NCBI RefSeq assembly: GCF_014066305.1
Contig: NW_023501050.1
Coordinates: forward strand, 496,001 to 560,000
Source of the DNA: Letharia columbiana
Taxonomy: Eukaryota > Ascomycota > Lecanoromycetes > Lecanorales > Parmeliaceae
DNA: 64,000 nucleotides
Direction: 5' to 3'
Each line of letters begins with the position of its first letter. The stretch's first letter is position 1. The position numbers and the translations under genes are program-made. Positions 3,993-53,945 of the stretch are shown here, piece after piece. Below the pieces are notes generated by a model. The model ran no database searches, was not told where the DNA came from, and saw only the letters and a list, made by a program, of their open reading frames with translations.

Positions 3993-5254
3993 ATGGTGCA
4001 TCCGACCAAAGAGATCATGGAAAGCTGGCCAGCACCCAACTTCGTCGATCCCGTGACAAGAGGCCCCGGGCTCACAGTCGTGAACATTATTTTCATAATA
4101 CTTGTATTCGTCGTTGTGGGATTGAGATACTACACGCGCCTGCGGATCACAAGAAGCTTTGGTCTCGAAGACTGGGTAATTGGCATTTCTCTGGTAAACA
4201 GCCGAGATTTTGATGCCATTTCCCTTTTAACGTGCTCCACTAGGTGCCCACGTTCGCCTTAACATGCGTTGTCCTAGTCGCTGATAACAATTTCGGCTGG
4301 AATCGACACTTTGGGATTTACATTCATCAAAAGGCCCCCCTGGATATAAGCTCTGTTTGGCAGCGCAGATACTGTTCTTCTGGGCGGCAACGTTGAACAA
4401 AATGTCTCTTCTGGCCTTTTACAAGCGGCTCACAGGCCTGTCACCCCTTTGTGGTATAGATGGTGTATAGTACTGGGTTTGGCTTTCCATACAGCAATGC
4501 TTCTCGCTTACTTTATTGTGGCTGTCAGTGCATGCAAGTAAGTCAATCTCGGAAATGTGGCCAGCTGCAAAGCTACTTGTCGAGTTTATTGACACAAGTT
4601 TTAGGCCATTATCAGCCTTCTGGATTCCTTGAGCAACGTACTCCCACACTTGCATCAACGAAGGCGTTTATATGCTGTCCTTCAGCATCATTACCCTCTT
4701 TTCAGATTTCTTACTCCTTCTGATGCCTATCCCCATTGTCTGGACCCTTCAACTATCTCTGAAACAGCGCATAGCCGTCCTTACGCTTTTCGCGATAGGC
4801 TTCATCGTGTGTATAGCGGGCATTGTGCAGGCAGTATATGTGAATGAGGCGCTTGTAAAGAGCTATGATGAGACGTGGGTTGGGTGGCCACTTTGGATTA
4901 CAAGTGCTATCGAGGTGGATTTGGGGATTGTGCGTACCATTATGTGTTATTCTTTGGGCAAGAGATCGCTAACAGATCTCAGTTGTGTGTCTCGATTTCG
5001 GCCACTCGTCCCCTGCTTGCCATCTATCTACCACAACTCCTTGAATCACAGCGTCCATTAACTAGGGCATTGAAAGAAGTCTATGATTCGAATGAGTTGT
5101 CAGACGCATCGCCTCATCCGGCGAACCTACACATCCCAGAGAAAGAGATACCAGGGTACTCCTCTAATGTGCACCAACCGACTGCCAGAGATCTTGAGCG
5201 TGGGGTAAATACTGGGCACGACGATGAGGATAAAGTCACGTTGGGAATTCATTG
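3993..5254 (+). pseudogene. PTH11-like (rhodopsin-domain) membrane receptor, disrupted
   Basis: Fungal rhodopsin-domain proteins of the PTH11 class are seven-helix membrane proteins. Recognisable pieces are a start at 3993 (MVHPTKEIMESWP), helix 1 (VVNIIFIILVFVVVGLRYYTR), the family motif R..GLEDWVIG, a GWNRH motif near 4300, helices around LAAQILFFWAAT and AMLLAYFIVAVSAC, the ...CINEGVYMLSFSIITLFSDFLLLLMPIPIVW block, and the ISATRPLLAIYLPQLL helix with a charged cytoplasmic tail to 5254. Introns appear at about 4193-4251, 4551-4603 and 4931-4981. Three lesions break it: a one-base shift at the T run near 4310 (between GWNRH and the WDL-like continuation), another shift near 4450, and an in-frame TGA where the family has Trp (near 4630). 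All three would have to be errors for the gene to be intact. Confidence 0.75.
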
Positions 5255-6860: not shown

Positions 6861-7948
6861 AGGCTAATAGAGAGGGTGAAGGTTGACGTACCGAAGAGCT
6901 TAAGGTAAGGTCATTAACCTTAGCTACCCATACCCATTTCTCGCAGAGTGTCGATATCCACGCCGTAGTAACTAGAGTGTCTGAAGAATTCTAAGGACTC
7001 GTGTAGACGTTGACGACCCCAAGATGTGCACAAGTCCAAGGATTTCCAGCCGTAAATTCATGTATGCCGAGACTGCTCTAATTTCCAAATGTGGACCTCA
7101 TTAAAGTACCCATAGTCAGTCAGCCCTACGCACAGACGCAAGCCGAGTCAACCCTTCCACTCTTCACGTCTCCTCCCCCTCCCTCCAATCATCTGCAACA
7201 ACTCGAAACAATACATCAACTCTCGTCCCTAAGTCATGAAGATGGACTTCAACATCACACTACCGTCCTCTGCCCCAAATAACACGCTGAGCTCTAGGGT
7301 GCCAGTAATGCCACGTATCCCATGCCCTACCGATATTTAGTATTCACCTGCCACACGGCTGTCTCTCGCCACTAAACTTCTCCCAACGACATATCCCGAG
7401 AGCTTTCAAACGCCTGCTACGTCTTCGGCACGTGCGATAAGTGTTCCTGTTAGGCATTTGCGGCATCTCTTGAGTCGCTCGGTCTTGAGGCTTCATCAAG
7501 ATTAGGTTGAGTGTAGATCTCGACAGCGACCACCATCCTTCCTACTAAAGATTCATGCGTACTAGTTGAGGATGTATAACTTGTACGCAATTCTTCATCT
7601 TCTTTTCGCGGTGCTATTTTGGACTTTGTTTGTTTTTTTGTTGTGCATTTCGGGTCATACTCTGCAGCGCTTGCGGTCAACTCTCCGTAGCAATCAATCT
7701 ATTTCTACTTAATTCATATGCAAGAACGAGCAGATCTGCCTCATCACTGCGCAATCTGTGGTCGATGGAGTACAGCTCATTGCGCAAAGATTAATTTTTC
7801 ATTAAGCGATAACGATCAAGATGGTTCAGAGTGCATACAGTTTGTGGCAAGTACTTGATAGTATTTTGTATGGATGTTATCTTGATTGGTTGTTCTTCCT
7901 AGTTATCTATGTACAAGGTCGCGAAGAGAATTAGAAGGGTAGGAGATT
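6861..7948. other. Intergenic, no gene seen
   Basis: About 1.1 kb with only short frames (for example 7091-7282 + and 7450-7680 -), neither showing a recognisable domain. Confidence 0.5.
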
Positions 7949-8030
7949 GGTCTTGTTGGCAATGGAGATCCATTGAACCCTAGTGCCACGTCATGGCCAA
8001 ACCCATACTAGGGTACATCGAGACATATAC
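7949..8030 (+). ncRNA. Candidate structured element, copy 1 (pseudoknot family)
   Basis: First of four related elements. Helix P1: GGTCTTG (7949-7955) with CAAACC (7998-8003), one bulged C. Hairpin P2: CAATGG (7960-7965), loop AGAT, CCATTG. Pseudoknot: CCCTAGT (7978-7984) with ACTAGGG (8007-8013), perfect 7 bp crossing P1. Hairpin P3: GCC (7985-7987), 7-nt loop ACGTCAT, GGC (7995-7997). The tail TACATCGAGACATATA follows the pseudoknot directly. Strand is assigned because all copies keep this order with a purine-rich leader upstream; transcription is not shown. Confidence 0.55.
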
Positions 8031-8274
8031 AATGATATATTCAGATAGATGATCGACGATGGAAGAGACGTGGGCTGAGCTGGGCTGGTATGGTGGGAAT
8101 GGGACTTGAAGGGATGGGGATGGAAGGGATGGGGATGCAAGGCATGGGATTCGATGGAAGGCATAGGATAGAGGCGAGAAAAAGAGAGGAAGGGTAGGCA
8201 GAAGATGAAGGAGGAAGATGGAGAGAAGTGAGAAGAGAGAAGAGAGACCAGCACCAAAGAGAGACAAAGGAGAT

Positions 8275-8356
8275 GAATCTTGTTAGCAACCCGAAGGTTG
8301 AGCTGCGGGGCCGCGTCAAGGCCAAGATTCTTCCCGCAGTACATCGGAAGATATAA
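8275..8356 (+). ncRNA. Candidate structured element, copy 2
   Basis: P1 GAATCTTG (8275-8282) with CAAGATTC (8323-8330), perfect. P2 CAACC (8287-8291), tetraloop CGAA, GGTTG (8296-8300). Pseudoknot CTGCGGG (8303-8309) with CCCGCAG (8333-8339), perfect. P3 GCC (8310-8312), loop GCGTCAA, GGC (8320-8322). Tail TACATCGGAAGATATA. Every paired strand except P3 differs from copy 1, yet pairing is retained. An ATTCAGATAGATG box about 8 nt after the tail is shared with copy 1. Confidence 0.6.
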
Positions 8357-8405
8357 CCATACATTCAGATAGATGTTCGCATGGAGAAGAGACACGGGCT
8401 TGAGG

Positions 8406-8640
8406 GATGGGATGGGCGGATGGGATGGGATGGGATGGGATGGGATGGGATGGGATGGGATGGGATGGGATGGGATGGGATGGGATGGGATGGGATGGGG
8501 ATGGGGATGGGATGGGATGGGATGGGATGGGATGGGATGGGATGGGATGGGATGGGATGGGATGGGATGGGATGGGATGGGATGGGATGGGATGGGATGG
8601 GATGGGATGGGATGGGATGGGATGGGATGGGATGGGAGGG
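8406..8640. repeat. Pentanucleotide microsatellite (TGGGA)n
   Basis: More than 40 units of TGGGA, with one interruption near 8498 (GGGGATGGGG). The apparent Ile-Pro-Ser-His-Pro protein on the other strand and Trp-Asp-Gly-Met protein on this strand are only translations of the repeat. Confidence 0.98.
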
Positions 8641-8805
8641 ATGGAATGGATGGAGGCAGATAGGTAGGGAGGGAGGGGTAAGTAAGATGAGGGAAGGTTG
8701 GGATGGTGCTGGGATGGAAGAGGATAGCGTAGGAGAGGTTGGTATGAGAGGGTGGCGTGGGAGAAGGCGGCATGGGATAGGTTGGGATGGTATGGAGAAG
8801 AAGGT

Positions 8806-8890
8806 AGGTGAGGTGAGGTGAGGTGAGGTGAGGTGAGGTGAGGTGAGGTGGGTGAGGTGAGGTGAGGTGAGGTGAGGTGAGGTGAGGTGA
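8806..8890. repeat. Pentanucleotide microsatellite (GGTGA)n
   Basis: About 16 units of GGTGA with one deletion near 8850. Purine-rich on the + strand like its neighbours. Confidence 0.95.
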
Positions 8891-8989
8891 GATCAGGCTG
8901 GAATAGTATAGGATAGAGCGAAGGGCAGCGTGGTAAGAGGCGGCGAGGGGATGGGCGACAAAGTTGAAAGCCGTGAGTTCGAGGCGACG

Positions 8990-9078
8990 AAGTCAGAGGC
9001 AGCGAGGTCAGAGGCAGCGAGGTCAGAGGCAGCGAGGTCAGAGGCAGCGAGGTCAGAGGCAGCGAGGTCAGTGGCAGG
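8990..9078. repeat. 15-bp minisatellite
   Basis: About six head-to-tail copies of AGCGAGGTCAGAGGC, nearly identical; the first and last copies carry single changes. Confidence 0.95.
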
Positions 9079-9145
9079 AGTAGAAGGGGAAGGAGAAGAA
9101 GAAAGATGAGAAGAGGAAGAAGACAGGAGAAGAGAGTAAGAAGAT

Positions 9146-9231
9146 GGTCTTGGTTAGCAACCCCGCAAGGTTGAGCCCCAGCGCTGCGACAAAGCCCAAG
9201 ACCGTGCTGAGGTACTAGATCGGAAAATATA
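9146..9231 (+). ncRNA. Candidate structured element, copy 3
   Basis: P1 GGTCTTGG (9146-9153) with CCAAGACC (9196-9203), perfect 8 bp. P2 CAACC (9158-9162), loop CCGCAA, GGTTG (9169-9173). Pseudoknot CCCCAGC (9176-9182) with GCTGAGG (9206-9212), six of seven pairs. P3 GCT (9183-9185), loop GCGACAA, AGC (9193-9195); the T/A pair here replaces C/G of the other copies, a compensatory change. Tail TACTAGATCGGAAAATATA. Confidence 0.6.
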
Positions 9232-9353
9232 GCAAGATAAATTCAGGTATATGGCCGATAAGGAAGAGAGGGAAGGAAGAGAAGAAGACATGGGACGGAA
9301 GGGAGGGAAGGGAAGGGAAGGGAGGGAAGGCAAGGGAAGGATGAGAAGGGAGT

Positions 9354-9365
9354 GAGAGAGAGAGA

Positions 9366-9428
<63 letters not shown>
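9354..9428. repeat. (GA)n dinucleotide microsatellite
   Basis: About 75 bp of nearly uninterrupted GA, lying just upstream of structured element copy 4. Confidence 0.97.
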
Positions 9429-9433
<5 letters not shown>

Positions 9434-9474
9434 TGAGAAGGAAGAAGAGGTAAGATAAAGGAAAGAAAGGAGAA

Positions 9475-9561
9475 GAGCTGCGTCAGTTACCCCGAAGGGA
9501 ATTAACAGGACTCGCCACGAGAAGGCCCAGCTCAGGAGTCCCCCTAAGTGGCAATTATATG
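9475..9561 (+). ncRNA. Candidate structured element, copy 4
   Basis: P1 GAGCTG (9475-9480) with CAGCTC (9528-9533). P2 GTTA-CCC, loop CGAA, GGG-(AAT)-TAAC (9486-9506). Pseudoknot GGACTC (9508-9513) with GAGTCC (9536-9541), perfect. P3 GCC (9514-9516), loop ACGAGAA, GGC (9524-9526). The tail is more diverged (CCTAAGTGGCAATTATAT). It starts 329 bp after copy 3, close to the 326 bp between copies 1 and 2. Confidence 0.55.
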
Positions 9562-11814: not shown

Positions 11815-14060
11815 TCACGGCTGGTCACCAAAGACATACTTCCTGCAAGCGGCTCTCAGCACCCCAACCTGCTGCTGTGTCCTCACAAACACCTCCCTAT
11901 ACTGTTCCAATGTCTCCTGAACAAAGTCATGCCGACTCTTCGTCCCAGCGCAAATTTCTTTCATCTTGATCTCCATCTCCTTACGCAGGAACGGCTTGCC
12001 CAGACTCGTCTCCAATCCTATACCATCATACCCTTCGATCAGAGCAACACCAAGAGTAGTTGGGATGAACTGCTGCACAGAGCCTCCACCTCCTCCGTTG
12101 CCTGCGTTACTACCACCTTGAGCGCCCCCTCTACCACCTCGGCCACCGCGACCTCCTCTGCCGTTAGTGCTGTTGGCTTGGGCAGTGCCGCCTGCTCGGG
12201 CTTGGGTCATGACATACTCTCGATCCTTGATTTTCGCGATATGCTCGGCCATTGTTGCATCAGTGCCTATACCATTGGCGTCCATTAGGCTGATAAGCTC
12301 AGGCTCGGTCAAATACCCTGGTGCAGTGGTCTCGCCTTCTGTTATGTTTGCTTCTGTTGGCTCGAAGGTCTCGTGCATGTTGAACCTGGGTAAAGGCTGG
12401 CTGCTTGTCCACTTCTCATATGGATAGACGTCCAAGTAGTTGCGCTCCAACACGATCAACCCATTGGTGAAGAACGTCTCATCACCATACTCGATCTCGA
12501 CAATTGTCGACTCCCCTTTCGCATCTTCCGAGCAGCAAGCGAGGAACCTTCGGACCACAAATTCGTACACTCGGCGATCGTCACCCGAGAGAGCAGCAAG
12601 GGAAACATAGTTAACTGGATGGATAGGCGGATGGGCCTGGTCATTGTTACGGCCGCTGCGTGGCCACTTGAAACCTCCAGCCAGGAGTCCTTGCGCGTAG
12701 GGGCCCCATGCATTGTCCTGGACTTGCTTCTCAATAAGAATCCTTAGATCAATGCCTTTGTCGAATGAATCGGTTTCGGTACGTGGGTAACTGATCCAGC
12801 CTTTGTTATACAGGTCCTCGGCGATCTATCGAAGATATCAGTGAAATCGTAGAGCGCGGAGGACGGAGAAGAGTACCTTCATCACCCTCTGACTGTCCAT
12901 ACGAAGGTACATGCTTCCAAGTTTCTGCAGCTCCACCGTCGTCAGTGGCAAAGGTCTCCATTTACTGGTTGGCTTCTTCTGTAATTTAGTGACCTTTGCC
13001 ATTCGTGCTGTGAGACACCTTTCGAAAAGGATCACAACAGATACCCGGTCGAATAAACGATGTCGTCGCCATGAAAATGTCACTTCCATATCGTCACGAA
13101 GATGCATGACTTTGATGCTCCAGAATTTTTCGGGCACGAAATTTTTGACTCTGAAATACCTGTCTACGACGAAGCCCAGTGTAGGAAATTGGCAGGATCC
13201 TACCCGATGTTAGAGATGATTTTCCACGAAATAGGATCAGGCCTGAAGGCGCACCATAGCTGATGACTCTTTCACTGAGATCTCCACCCATCACCTGCAA
13301 AGTCAGCGTGTTAAACCGCGTAAAAGCGTACCCGATGCGTAGATCCAACTCTATTCGTGCTGCGACGGCATTGACTTGTCGCTCGTCCAGGTTGATCGCA
13401 TTTTGAGCAGCTCTAACCACATGTCTACAACGTTGAGGATCAAATTAGCCAAAAGAGACCGACTCGATAGTGATTACGCATATTTTGACATACGCTCTCT
13501 CGGTGTTATTGAACTGCGCTCTTTTTACTTCAAGCGACCTGTTGCCCTGAAAAGCCGCTCGTCGCACCTCTGAACCGATGTGCTCGCCCTCTCGATCGCA
13601 GTCAGTCCAAACGAAAAGAGCTCTAGAGTATCGGGCTTGTTGCGCGATATTATCTGCAATAGCTTTCTTGTCCTAAACTCGTTTGAGATTGTGATGTCAG
13701 GCAGACCAGCGGAAACCATACCTGGTTTACCACATCCTCAACAGGAGCGTCGAACAAAGACCACGGGGGCGGCGAATGCCATTGATTGTACTGAGCTGGG
13801 AATTTGAGCTCAGTGAGATGCCCGAGGACGCTTGTCATTGTCACGGAGCAGTTGCCCCATGGTGGACCAAAGTTGAAATCGAAGTCGTAATTCTTTACGT
13901 ATGGATTGCCGGTAATGCTTCGCTTCAAATTTGTGAGCTACAAACCACTACAAACAATAAAAAATCCACCTACCGTGGTCACTTGTCCTCCGCTCAGATG
14001 CTGAGCTACAGATTTGGCAATGGCTGGCTTCTCAGCAACGCAGAGGATCTTGCGTGCCAT
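11815..14060 (-). CDS. TOP3: DNA topoisomerase III (type IA)
   Basis: Type IA topoisomerase that acts in the nucleus with a RecQ helicase and Rmi1 to dissolve recombination intermediates. Six exons: 14060-13974, 13937-13722, 13672-13494, 13424-13255, 13199-12877, 12825-11815; all junctions keep frame, giving about 660 residues, normal for the yeast-type enzyme. The N-terminus MARKILCVAEKPAIAKSVA opens the Toprim domain; its acidic motif DCDREGEHIG lies near residue 124. SYGSCQFPTLGFVVDRYF is the conserved hinge-proximal block. The catalytic Tyr is in GWISYPRTET near residue 338. LMDANGIGTDATMAEHI is the conserved C-lobe motif. A Gly/Arg-rich RGG tract (about residues 548-578) sits between this and the final core segment; it may bind nucleic acid. 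No C-terminal zinc fingers, unlike animal TOP3A. It shares a divergent promoter with the DUF1295 gene. Confidence 0.95.
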
Positions 14061-23630: not shown

Positions 23631-23831
23631 GACCGAATCCCTGCTTCCGGCCGTCGAGCGCCGCCTTGCAAGATCCATCGGTGGCGGGGATGGATGGAGC
23701 TGTGGAGGCTGAAGCGAAAGGGACCGGGGGATGTGGACTTTGCTGTCTTTTTTCATATAGGGACCATGGGCGGGGAGGGGCTGGTACTGGTGACCGAATC
23801 CCTGCTTCCGGCCGTCGACCGCCGCCTTGCA
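23631..23831. repeat. 40-bp direct repeat pair
   Basis: Bases 23631-23670 and 23792-23831 match at 39 of 40 positions (core CTGCTTCCGGCCGTCGA), 161 bp apart. They lie in open frames on both strands, neither of which I recognise. Confidence 0.85.
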
Positions 23832-49350: not shown

Positions 49351-52300
49351 ATGTATTACTTTAGGACACTCTCTTGCCCATTGCTACTTCTACTATTGCT
49401 GGAGTCTAGCCAAAGCAGCGCTCAGAGTACAGCGTCTGCTGCAACGACAGCTGCATCCTCGTCAGCAATTCCGCCATCCTGTATCCAGTCAAGAGCTCCC
49501 ACAGCCTCGTCTGCAGCGGCAATACAGTCCTCACTTGCCAGCGACGCTACAATCAGCAAGGCCTGCGATCCTTCGATTCAACAATGGGTCAGTGGTAGCG
49601 GCACCACACAAACATACTATGCCCTTGACAGCGCCTATTTCTTCAATATCTCCCTTGCAGCGGGTGTCACTAACCGTCCACCTTCCCAAGAATGTGCAAC
49701 TAACTTCAATGCTATCCTCTCATCATGCGTGGTGAGTCAAGACTATTGGGGAGGATGGATCGTTTCCAATGGAATGAATTACTCAAGTACGTGAGAGAGG
49801 ATTATACTCGAAGTTTCATGAATACTGATATGCCCTAAAAAGTTAACTATACACCGCCAAGCCCAATGTCTAGTGCAGCGAGCAGTATATCAGGCAGTAC
49901 CATGGGCTCAAGCGCCACTCCGAACTCTGCGTCTTCAGCATCTTCAGTCAGCTCTGCCTCCCCAACAAATGGCGCAGGTATCCCGGGCTCAGCGAGTAGT
50001 GTTCGTGCTTCTGGTATGGCAAGTGGACTGTCGAGCTCGAGCTCGAACTTAGGGCTTTTCCCCTCAAAGTCATCTTGGGGTACCGGTGTGACAGCGAGCA
50101 CCGCTTCTCTTGCAACTACTGCCCATTTCGGTTCTTCAGAAAATCCGGCCAGCTCCGCTCCTTCAGCAGGTAGTTTGAGTTCTGTGCCAGGCTCAAGTGT
50201 CTATGTCTTCGATGGAGTTACTTTCACAAGTGGACCCTCTGGCCTTGTCGCTGGGACAGCCACGGTCCAGCCTGGAGGAAATGCCGTGACAATATCTAGT
50301 CATACATTTTCCCTCGGCCCCTCAGGAAGCTCGATGGCGGTCGACGGAACGATCAGCCCTCTGACTCTGGGAATCACGACAATGCTAAATGGTCACCCAA
50401 GTACATTAGCAAGCACATCAGTATCGTCTCCTACGTCATCAGCGGCAACGCAACCTGATCCCAGTGTCTATACTTTCGATGGAGTCGTCTTTACCAGTGG
50501 GGCGTCGGGACTAATTGCTGGGACTGCCACTGTGAAGCCAGGTGGACCCGCCGTCACGGTATCTAGCCACACTTTCTCACTCGGGTCTTTAGGGAGCACA
50601 ATCGCTGTTGACGGAACATTATCAGCTCTAACACCACCTCAAGTGCCTAGTACCGCAGGCTCTGTCTCTATGTCAAGTCACAGTGCTAAACTGAGTGTCT
50701 ATACCTTCGATGGGATAGTCTTCACCAGTGGTACGTCTGGCCTTATCGCTGGAACTGCCACCGTACAGCCTGGTGGACCAGCCGTCACTATTTCGAGCCA
50801 TACTTTCTCTCTAGGTCCAGCGGGAAGCACAATCGCTGTTGACGGAACATTATCAGCTCTAACACCACCTCAAGTGCCTAGTACCGCAGGCTCTGTCTCT
50901 ATGTCAAGTCACAGTGCTAAACTGAGTGTCTATACCTTCGATGGGATAGTCTTCACCAGTGGTACATCTGGCCTTGTCGCTGGAACTGCCACCGTACAGC
51001 CTGGTGGACCAGCTGTCACTATTTCGAGCCATACTTTCTCTCTAGGACCAGCGGGAAGCACAATCGCTGTCGATGGTACACTGTCGCCTTTAACGCCATC
51101 TCAGGCCTTTGCCACCAGCTCCATCTCAAAGTCTAGCGCCAGTCTTGGACCGACTTTCACGCCTCCCCCTTCCCCAGTCTATACTATCGACGGGATTGCG
51201 CTTACGGGAAATCCGAGCTCCGCTCTCACCATTGCAGGCAGCACAATCACACCAGGCGGCCCACCAGCTATTGTTTCAAGTCATACATTCTCAATCCCCG
51301 CTGCAGCCACCGGCAATGCAATCAACGTTGACGGAACCGTGACTCATCTTTCGACCCCAACGGCAACCAGTAGAGCCTCTCCAGGATCTACTAAGAGTGC
51401 CAGTTCTGCTCCCATGACAACCGGACCGTCTTCTATCTACACCATTGATGGTGTTACACTCACAGGCAATCCAACGAGTCTTGCTACTGCGAATTGGACT
51501 CTGACCGTTGGAGGCTCTGCCATGACAATCTCGAGCCATACTTTCCAAATTCCTGCTTTGGCTACGGGAGGTGCGATCAGCGTAGACGGAACTCTGACTA
51601 CTCTACCCTCCCTAGGTGCGACTGGGACCAGGAGCTCAGGGGCCTTGATGGCAAGTTCGAGATCTTCAGCGGGAGACTCAGTACCCTCCACGATGAGCCA
51701 AGGATCTTCAGCCAGCTCACAGCCTGCCATTAACCAGTATACTTTCGCGGTCACTGCCACCAATACCGCCATACCCGCCGGTTTCTACGCGCAAGCCAGC
51801 AGTAATGCTGATTGGCATTCCAATACGTGGCTCACAACTACCGATAAAAGTGGGCATACAACAATCGTGCCCGTCCTCGTTGGATGCAAAGTATGTGGGC
51901 CCATAGGCGCAGGTATCATATTATGGGATCTGCCCCCGATTCCGGATATTTCTTTCTCATTCCCAAAGTTCAACCTGCCATCGTTCTCACTCCCGTGTAT
52001 TCCGATTCCCTTCATAAAGAGCTGCAGTTCGCCAGGAAACACGCCGGAAACTGGTAGGTAGTGCCCTACTTTTGCAGTACGATGCTAATCTGGACTAGAT
52101 ATTGATGACTCAACTCCGGGCAGCGATCCGAACAAGCCAAATCCCAATGATCCAGATGGAAACCCCGACGAGGAAGAGCCGGATGAGGAGAAGAAAACGC
52201 AAGAGCAGCAAAGCGAGGAAAAGCAAACCCAGACAAAGCCAAGCAAGAGTACTACTCCATTAAGTACAACGCCTCTGAGTACTATGCCGTCGAGTACTAC

Positions 52301-53945
52301 GCCTTCAAGTTCTATTACAAGTGGATCCTCATGTGTATTAAGTATCTATTCACTTACCCCCTTTACGGACCTCGCCACTCTAGACACGGGCGGAATCACC
52401 ACATTCGGGAGCATGACTTCGTCAGGAAACGCCACCAGCGCATCCTCATGTGTATTAAGTATCTATTCACTCACTCCATTTACGGACCTCGCCACTCTAG
52501 ACACGGGCGGAATCACCACATTCGGGAGCATGACTTCGTCAGGAAACGCCACCAGCGCATCCTCATGTGTATTAAGTATCTATTCACTCACTCCATTTAC
52601 GGACCTCGCCACTCTAGACACAGGCGGAATCACCACATTCGGCAGCATGACCTCCTCCGGAACAACAACAAATGCATCCTCATGTGTATTAACTGTTTAC
52701 TCCCTGACATCCTTCACGGATCTCGCGACGCTTGTGACGGATGATTCAACAGATACCGCAACAGCCTCTGCAAATGCGACAGCACCAATAACCCAAACCA
52801 CCACTGACGCATCCTCATGTTTATTAACCGTATACACCCTGACACCCTTCACCGACATTGCAACCCTCGATACCGACGACGCCCCTACCCTAACTGCCAC
52901 CCCGACCCTAGTTGCCACCCCGACCCTAGTAACCAACCCAACCCTGACCGCCACCCCGACCAAAACTGCCACCCCGACTACCACACCCCGCTCTATCACC
53001 TCCGCTCCGACCAGTACCCCCCAACCCGACTGCAGTGCACTAACCGTCTCCTGGTTCTCACCAACCGTATGGTGCCAATGCGGCGAAGACCAAGCCACTT
53101 ACGCAGCCCTCCCCTCCTCAAGCGGCGCCTCCGCCAACTGCGACCTCACTGCCCTCCCATCCAAAACCATCAACCCCATCTCCGTCAAACCTGGCCCCAC
53201 AAACATCCCCGGCGTCAATGGCCTCGACGGCTGTAACGCCGTCGACGCAGGCGACGAACAAGGTTGCCCCGGGGTCGACTACTGCAACTGCAATGAAGTC
53301 TACGTCGGTTTCCTGTCCGCCACTGTCTCCGGCACGGTGTCCCGAAACTGCGATTACACGCTCCAACCCACCGTAAATGACTGCCCCATAAACACACTCG
53401 CCCTACTCTCCGCCTCAGTCTCCGCATCAAAAGCCGCCGTTGCCCCAAAGCCTACCCCAACCCCCACAACCAGCTCATTCGACATGGCCAGCACGACCCT
53501 ATCCTGCGGCGCCAAATTCTCCACCGACTCCGGCGCAATCTACACCTCGATCCCGCGCGCGCAAACGAACCAGATCCTCTCCAACATCGGCGATTTCTGC
53601 ACCCCATCCGACAACGGCGTCGGCGACACCCTCACTCTCGTCAAAGGAAAACCAGCCTTCCACACCATGCGTTTCGACGCCCCGGGACTCATGCTGTATC
53701 AGTTCGAAATGCAGTGGGATCCCCGGCCCGAGTGCGCGAACATCCCGGCGCCGGAGATACGCGATGCGGTGCCCACGGGCCCGGATTATTGGTGTCAGGT
53801 GTATTTCGACGCGATTACGAACAGCTGCGATGCGGGGTCGGGCGAGGATAAGCATGGGGGGATCATGTACGCTGATTGTGTGATTTGGGGGTGGGAGGCG
53901 TATGACGGGTGTAGTGGGGAATTTGCGAAGGTTAACGATTGTTAG
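49351..53945 (+). CDS. Large secreted repeat glycoprotein (cell surface)
   Basis: Exons 49351-49786, 49843-52053 and 52099-53945 give about 1,497 residues. Signal peptide MYYFRTLSCPLLLLLLLESSQSSAQ. An N-terminal domain with few Cys (CDPSIQQW...CATNFNAILSSC) precedes six copies of a ~50-residue unit of the form YTFDG-x-TSG...AGTATVQPGGPAVTISSHTFSL...I-VDGT (starts near 50199, 50461, 50697, 50928, 51177, 51433). After a Cys-containing region and an acidic linker (GNPDEEEPDEEKKTQEQ) comes a second array of 39-residue units (SCVLSIYSLTPFTDLATLDTG). The C-terminus (SCGAKF...DFCTPSDNG...CQVYFDAITNSCDAG...DCVIWGWEAYDGCSG) is a Cys-containing domain common at the end of fungal secreted repeat proteins. 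No GPI signal seen. Likely wall-associated or extracellular. Confidence 0.85.
50650..51110 (+). repeat. 231-bp tandem duplication inside the glycoprotein
   Basis: A unit of 231 bp (77 codons) starting near 50650 recurs at 50881 with only a few differences; it covers the VYTFDGIVFTSG ... SAKL segment. The adjacent copies are older and more diverged. Confidence 0.9.
52326..52811 (+). repeat. 117-bp tandem repeats inside the glycoprotein
   Basis: Units begin at 52326, 52443 and 52560 (117 bp, 39 codons, almost identical); a diverged 135-bp unit starts at 52677 and another near 52812. Length stays a multiple of three, so copy number can change without frameshift. Confidence 0.93.

Follow-up and report, generated by a model that had tools for sequence, protein, structure and literature searches.

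Four elements in a row in the Letharia columbiana genome are very likely HDV-like self-cleaving ribozymes read from the minus strand

What are the four structured elements that lie between positions 7949 and 9542 of a 64,000-nt window (the whole stretch of DNA that was analysed, a part of the 52.2-Mb genome of Letharia columbiana), and on which strand would they act? Read on the plus strand, they had been described as a family of covarying pseudoknots of no known class. Read on the minus strand, they take the form of HDV-like self-cleaving ribozymes that would probably chop a noncoding transcript, and we give this reading a probability of about 0.88. The ribozyme class and its occurrence in fungi are already known, and the arrangement in four copies is unusual.

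On the minus strand, all four copies form a nested double pseudoknot in the order P1, P2, P3, P1', P4, P2'. Position numbers are those of the genomic HDV ribozyme. P1 has 7 of 7 pairs in every copy, the wobbles being a U-G in copy 3 and G1-U37 in copy 4, and P1 (7 bp) and P3 (3 bp) together have no unpaired cell in the four copies and in two candidates found elsewhere in the genome, e5 and e6. P1.1 consists of one pair only (22-38), in which L3 position 22 pairs with position 38 after P1' (G-U, G-C, G-C and C-G in copies 1-4), and U faces U at the second place. The cut-site pair is C-G in copies 1-3, e5 and e6 and G-U in copy 4. Copy 4, e5 and e6 carry extra nucleotide(s) between P2 and P3, and in copy 4 two additional nucleotides separate CUGA from P2. 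The hand-parsed parts, which match the window exactly in each of the four copies, and the two candidates are as follows:

8013-7949, minus strand: putative HDV-like ribozyme, copy 1
8013-8007/7984-7978 (P1), 8003-7998/7955-7949 (P2, one bulge), 7997-7995/7987-7985 (P3), 7975-7960 (P4), minus strand: helices of copy 1
7994-7988, minus strand: L3 of copy 1, AUGACGU (A replaces the signature U20)
7959-7956, minus strand: J4/2 of copy 1, CCAA, with putative catalytic C 7959
between 8014 and 8013, minus strand: predicted cut of copy 1 (activity doubtful)
8339-8275, minus strand: putative HDV-like ribozyme, copy 2
8339-8333/8309-8303 (P1), 8330-8323/8282-8275 (P2), 8322-8320/8312-8310 (P3), 8300-8287 (P4), minus strand: helices of copy 2
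8319-8313, minus strand: L3 of copy 2, UUGACGC
8286-8283, minus strand: J4/2 of copy 2, CUAA, with putative catalytic C 8286
between 8340 and 8339, minus strand: predicted cut of copy 2
9212-9146, minus strand: putative HDV-like ribozyme, copy 3
9212-9206/9182-9176 (P1, one U-G), 9203-9196/9153-9146 (P2), 9195-9193/9185-9183 (P3), 9173-9158 (P4), minus strand: helices of copy 3
9192-9186, minus strand: L3 of copy 3, UUGUCGC
9157-9154, minus strand: J4/2 of copy 3, CUAA, with putative catalytic C 9157
between 9213 and 9212, minus strand: predicted cut of copy 3
9542-9475, minus strand: putative HDV-like ribozyme, copy 4
9542-9536/9513-9507 (P1, G1-U37 wobble), 9533-9528/9480-9475 (P2), 9526-9524/9516-9514 (P3), 9505-9487 (P4), minus strand: helices of copy 4
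9523-9517, minus strand: L3 of copy 4, UUCUCGU
9486-9481, minus strand: J4/2 of copy 4, CUGACG, with putative catalytic C 9486
between 9543 and 9542, minus strand: predicted cut of copy 4
contig C60 from 130,346 (L007 1486-1556), plus strand: candidate e5, by core pattern and model R1
contig C26 from 294,972 (L032 1542-1469), minus strand: candidate e6, by core pattern and model R1

Coordinates, helices and spacings of the four elements agree with those given by the sequence-only reading, which had taken them on the plus strand; the HDV order of helices appears on the minus strand. There its pseudoknot is P1 (7 bp per copy), its P1 is P2, its P3 stays P3 with the 7-nt loop, the hairpin that it called P2 is P4, and J4/2 lies within its J1/2. 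In particular, the TTRGC that it noted in three copies is GCYAA on the minus strand, that is, the final base of P4 followed by the CYAA of J4/2. The likeness to HDV-like ribozymes that it pointed out is strengthened, every HDV helix being found in order, while its statements that P4/J4-2 is missing, that J1/2 contains an additional hairpin and that no known class applies arose because the complement strand was read: P4 and J4/2 are both present, the hairpin is P4, and the elements match the HDV-like layout. The mismatch reported in the third pseudoknot pair exists on the plus strand, but is a U-G wobble on the minus strand, and the seventh P1 pair of copy 4 (G1-U37) is gained on the minus strand only. 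P1 of copies 3, 4 and e5 pairs fully only in the ribozyme sense, its complement having one mismatch in each. The case shows that reading the reverse strand can disguise a known ribozyme as a new class.

That the stems differ in sequence and still pair, and that folded RNA has been under selection, finds support in the pairing and covariation statistics. Copies 1-3 were aligned by MAFFT with no use of structure, and 23 pairs were scored in the rows with letters on both sides: 67 of 67 cells are standard pairs and 13 of the 23 pairs, including pairs of P1 and P2, are changed on both sides. Neither value is attained by any of 500 column shuffles, and structures slid along the alignment give only 26-47% pairing. 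In two P2 pairs of this alignment copy 1 is gapped, and its P2 requires one bulge. A covariance-type comparison was extended to six sequences with a model, R1, built from copies 1-3 alone, with copy 4, e5 and e6 held out. In the six-sequence alignment, which was fitted to R1 and hence to a model already containing P1 and P3, 66 of 66 cells of P1, P3 and P1.1 are paired, 9 of 11 pairs are doubly changed, and 0 of 500 shuffles equal this; both-side changes occur at 100% pairing in 7 of 7 P1 pairs and in the P1.1 pair (G-U, G-C, C-G). When the 5' and 3' strands of P1 are matched across the six elements, which had been accepted partly on their P1, only the true one of the 720 ways gives 42 of 42 pairs.

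The layout can also be counted against chance by means of a relaxed HDV descriptor (P1 of 7 bp, P3 of 3 bp, L3 of 7 nt containing CG, at least 5 bp in P2, and C-N-R-R placed 0-2 nt ahead of P2), which was designed post hoc with the elements already known. It matches the 64-kb window nowhere on the plus strand and four times on the minus strand, exactly at the four elements. Dinucleotide shuffles of the whole window (200) give a mean of 0.875 matches and a maximum of 4, or 0.355 and 2 when a tight P1-P3 distance is imposed, and none of 500 shuffled versions of the 1.75-kb locus gives a match. Across 258,344 bases of partly overlapping loci, the descriptor finds six places attributable to chance (L005, L010, L012, L035, L038, L076). 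An earlier, stricter descriptor recovered only copies 2 and 3 among the four elements and also matched about four other places in the window, near 23716, 23738 and 54969 (plus) and 774 (minus).

The active-site letters are conserved as well. In HDV, the catalytic cytosine of J4/2 acts as general acid and stands in the context CNRA. A C followed by NRA is found in J4/2 of all four window copies (CCAA, CUAA, CUAA and CUGA in copies 1-4), and the candidate J4/2 reads CUAA in e6 and CGAG, outside the CNRA context, in e5. G25 of L3 is present in six of six elements (the four copies, e5 and e6) and U20 in five; both letters are thus carried by copies 2, 3, 4, e5 and e6, and copy 1 has A20. The letters U20, G25 and C75 are named for the HDV ribozyme in the available text of PMC3386971, and a catalytic C in J4/2 is described for HDV-like ribozymes there and in that of PMC3774820. 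In the antigenomic HDV ribozyme, where U20-G25 of L3 correspond to U23-G28, the U23A mutant is reported to be inactive and A23 occurs in none of five active combinations (PMC3386971, section 5). Copy 1 is probably dead or slow, because it has an A at U20 and the U23A change inactivates the antigenomic ribozyme. In addition, the first A and last U of its L3 (7988-7994) could pair to leave a 4-bp P3 and a 5-nt loop, which would be a further reason to expect inactivity.

The Rfam search proposed in the sequence-only reading was run, and the Rfam HDV model matches nothing in the region at E values of up to 10. RF00094 detects none of the six elements and gave no match over the genome among the best 86 of 772 first-look candidates, which were scored. 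No Rfam family, hammerheads included, reaches its gathering score in the window; six matches at E 0.33-9.6 (one CRISPR repeat, four lncRNA, one snoRNA) fall below gathering scores and were judged to be chance. The array would thereby add HDV-like ribozymes that Rfam's model overlooks. The array copies share the P1-P2-P3-L3-P1'-P4-J4/2-P2' order with the HDV, R2 and L1Tc ribozymes and with the fungal variants of PMC5640933, and the 7-bp P1, 3-bp P3, 7-nt L3 with CG and J4/2 C of HDV-like ribozymes recur in the array, as does U20 in copies 2-4. Fungal HDV-type variants, of which that source counts 230 representatives from 26 species, are characterised in its available part by a C-G at the cut site, as in copies 1-3, an extra nucleotide between P2 and P3, as in copy 4, and a loop E in P4 (PMC5640933). 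In contrast, copies 1-3 have a plain P4 hairpin in which no loop E was recognised by hand parse; the array copies further differ from HDV-like ribozymes in that their P1.1 is a single pair, they escape RF00094 and they stand four in a row. HDV-like ribozyme sequences also occur in tandem in Leishmania SIDER2 (two Pr77 hallmarks), where, according to the text available from PMC4035085, two copies stand at the 5' end of a retroelement, whereas the array has four, more widely spaced, with no retroelement recognised. Among the matches listed, no open-access title or abstract beginning describes a fungal array of HDV-like ribozymes.

The genome was searched by core sequence patterns, and e5 and e6 emerged as two weaker candidates. 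Core pattern 1 has 24 matches, all tested, and only in copies 1-3 and e5 do the 60 nt upstream contain a P1 that pairs fully; core pattern 2 has 10, again all tested, with a fully paired P1 in copy 4, e5, e6 and copy 2. Core pattern 3 has 98 matches, of which 30 were scanned by the relaxed descriptor, three others were viewed as small pieces and several were already covered through other patterns. All 15 loci with the J4/2-tail pattern were scanned by the relaxed descriptor and none was accepted outside the array; among 20 matches to the copy-4 pattern, which include copy 4 and e5, four were viewed as small pieces and none of these was accepted by eye. The genome count is therefore at least six elements, a lower bound because only part of the pattern matches was examined. 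Against R1, e5 scores 31.4 bits and e6 30.2 bits, the next-best locus outside the array among 52 loci, mostly chosen for a core-like pattern, reaching 11.3 bits; copy 4 is weak (7.8 bits, E 0.29 in 6 kb) and keeps the same P1/P3 register. Candidate e5, whose J4/2 reads CGAG, whose P2 has 5 bp and which carries two additional nucleotides ahead of P3, is the weaker one because it was rejected by the relaxed descriptor and passed a looser scan only. No long homology links the e5 and e6 regions to the array (blastn, E 0.01). A good 5' splice site, AGGTAAGT, lies upstream of e6 (L032) and ends 43 nt before its predicted cut, for which reason e6 may be inside an intron. About two thirds of the 98 core-pattern-3 matches (by eye) are almost identical over 23 letters and belong to a dispersed repeat (for example at loci L044, L050 and L063) with GGCCTTGTTGTCGCTTGGTTTCT and few variants, three viewed copies of which contain 'gtgttctccgc' stretches; it does not fit a ribozyme because its P3 fails to pair. 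Another locus, L085 (G000:C114:163930-164090), has a core-like GCC-TTGGCGA-GGC, preceded at a distance of about 50 nt by what could be a P1 of 7 bp, and might also form P2; it was left out of the count as a proper J4/2 was not seen by eye.

The four elements share the stretch 7900-9560 with several simple repeats, and this stretch has 75% purine on the plus strand compared with 50% window-wide. In the frames tested, no gene was recognised between a rhodopsin-domain frame and a topoisomerase gene, and the landmarks around the array are these:

4672-5061, plus strand: frame with a fungal rhodopsin domain (Pfam)
recognised coding part ending near 11815, minus strand: topoisomerase gene, the nearest recognised gene upstream of the array
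8404-9077, no strand: low-complexity arrays in the spacer between copies 2 and 3 (repeat analysis)
8404-8653: (GGGAT)n
8802-8891: (AGGTG)n
8988-9077: 15-bp repeat
8014-8076, minus strand: conserved 5' flank of copy 1 (RNA directly upstream of the predicted cut)
8340-8400, minus strand: conserved 5' flank of copy 2
9213-9275, minus strand: conserved 5' flank of copy 3

The 5' flank is common to copies 1-3, with 74% identity between copies 1 and 2 (8027-8076 versus 8351-8400), and its exact pattern, derived from the three copies, has three genome matches, all inside the array. A pyrimidine-rich 3' flank is present in all four. Judging by the almost equal outer intervals (330 and 326 nt), the array probably arose when a unit of about 327 bp was duplicated in tandem, after which simple repeats expanded between copies 2 and 3; these repeats, about 430 bp in all, explain most of the amount by which the middle interval (873 nt) exceeds the outer ones. 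As the copies have diverged and yet kept P1 and P2, selection on folding after duplication can be argued.

From this layout we infer transcription, cleavage, a release of pieces and some use of them. Transcription would run from high to low coordinates through the region, and each copy would fold into its double pseudoknot (P1, P2, P3, P4 and the one-pair P1.1) and cut the chain directly 5' of P1. As in HDV, the last nucleotide ahead of P1 would use its 2'-hydroxyl to attack the phosphate that follows, leaving a 5'-OH and a 2',3'-cyclic phosphate, with the first C of J4/2 acting as the catalytic cytosine. Cuts at copies 4, 3, 2 and 1 would release three pieces (330, 873 and 326 nt) that each begin with a ribozyme. 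Two fungal variants cleave in vitro, and the HDV mechanism with its cut before P1 has been demonstrated for them (PMC5640933, section 7). The most likely outcome is that a noncoding transcript is chopped by the copies, for processing or destruction.

The pieces might instead have a life of their own. A retrozyme-like locus of HDV class, in which neighbouring ribozymes excise units of about 326-330 nt and a host tRNA ligase joins the 5'-OH and 2',3'-cyclic phosphate ends of a unit into a small circle that may spread, would account for two nearly equal intervals of three (326 and 330 nt) and for the shared flanks. It has a parallel in animal non-LTR retrozymes, described in the available text of PMC7229834 as hammerhead (type I) tandem repeats of about 300 bp whose units each carry a self-cleaving ribozyme, as predicted here, and which tRNA ligase circularises better than self-ligation does. 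A filamentous fungus is known to contain small RNA circles, 157-450 nt long (PMC9875651), but those circles are exogenous, and that paper uses no word that starts with HDV. Moreover, the array differs from animal retrozymes in being of HDV class, with no hammerhead in the repeat unit by Rfam gathering score, in being fungal, and in that a single array of diverged copies was found rather than many near-identical ones. The 5'-flank pattern is confined genome-wide to the array, a single nucleotide search with copy 2 plus flanking sequence returned copy 2 alone, and the middle interval is 873 nt. We therefore regard this explanation as unlikely, and its fullest form, an HDV-type counterpart of hammerhead retrozymes that makes 326-330-nt circular RNAs in a fungus by flanking-ribozyme excision and tRNA ligase closure, as quite unlikely. 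If true, such a counterpart would offer a chromosomal route for the origin of HDV-like circular replicons, and the array makes it possible to test directly whether unit-length RNAs are produced in fungi by means of HDV-class ribozymes.

It is also improbable that the array consists of decaying remnants of ribozymes which a mobile element once carried, for example at LINE 5' ends, and which now have no role. HDV-like ribozymes occur in many non-LTR elements (PMC3774820 and PMC4035085, in their available parts), copy 1 bears a change that inactivates HDV, and the two candidates lie at other loci; however, a test of 10 of the 26 stop-to-stop frames listed around the array found no reverse transcriptase domain in those 10, and compensatory P1 and P2 changes in diverged copies favour selection after duplication. 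It is more doubtful still that the ribozymes are part of the 3' end, or of a read-through transcript, of the upstream topoisomerase gene, which they would trim or destabilise: this gene is on the same strand (minus) and is the nearest upstream one recognised in the frames tested, but about 2.3 kb separate its last recognised coding frame from copy 4. A new plus-strand pseudoknot RNA or ribozyme class, as suggested by the sequence-only reading, is hardly credible and was dismissed: the same helices can be drawn on the plus strand, but wobbles become mismatches there (one in P1 of copies 3, 4 and e5 each), the relaxed descriptor has no plus-strand match in the window, and the full HDV active site is present on the minus strand. 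Minus-strand HDV-like ribozymes acting on a noncoding transcript thus remain the preferred reading.

Outside the array, Pfam families found in the window include HTH_AAA_fung, Fungal_trans_2 and Fung_rhodopsin. Two large open frames without a Pfam match hold long tandem repeats with units of 231 bp and 117 bp, at 50463-51070 and 52325-52692.
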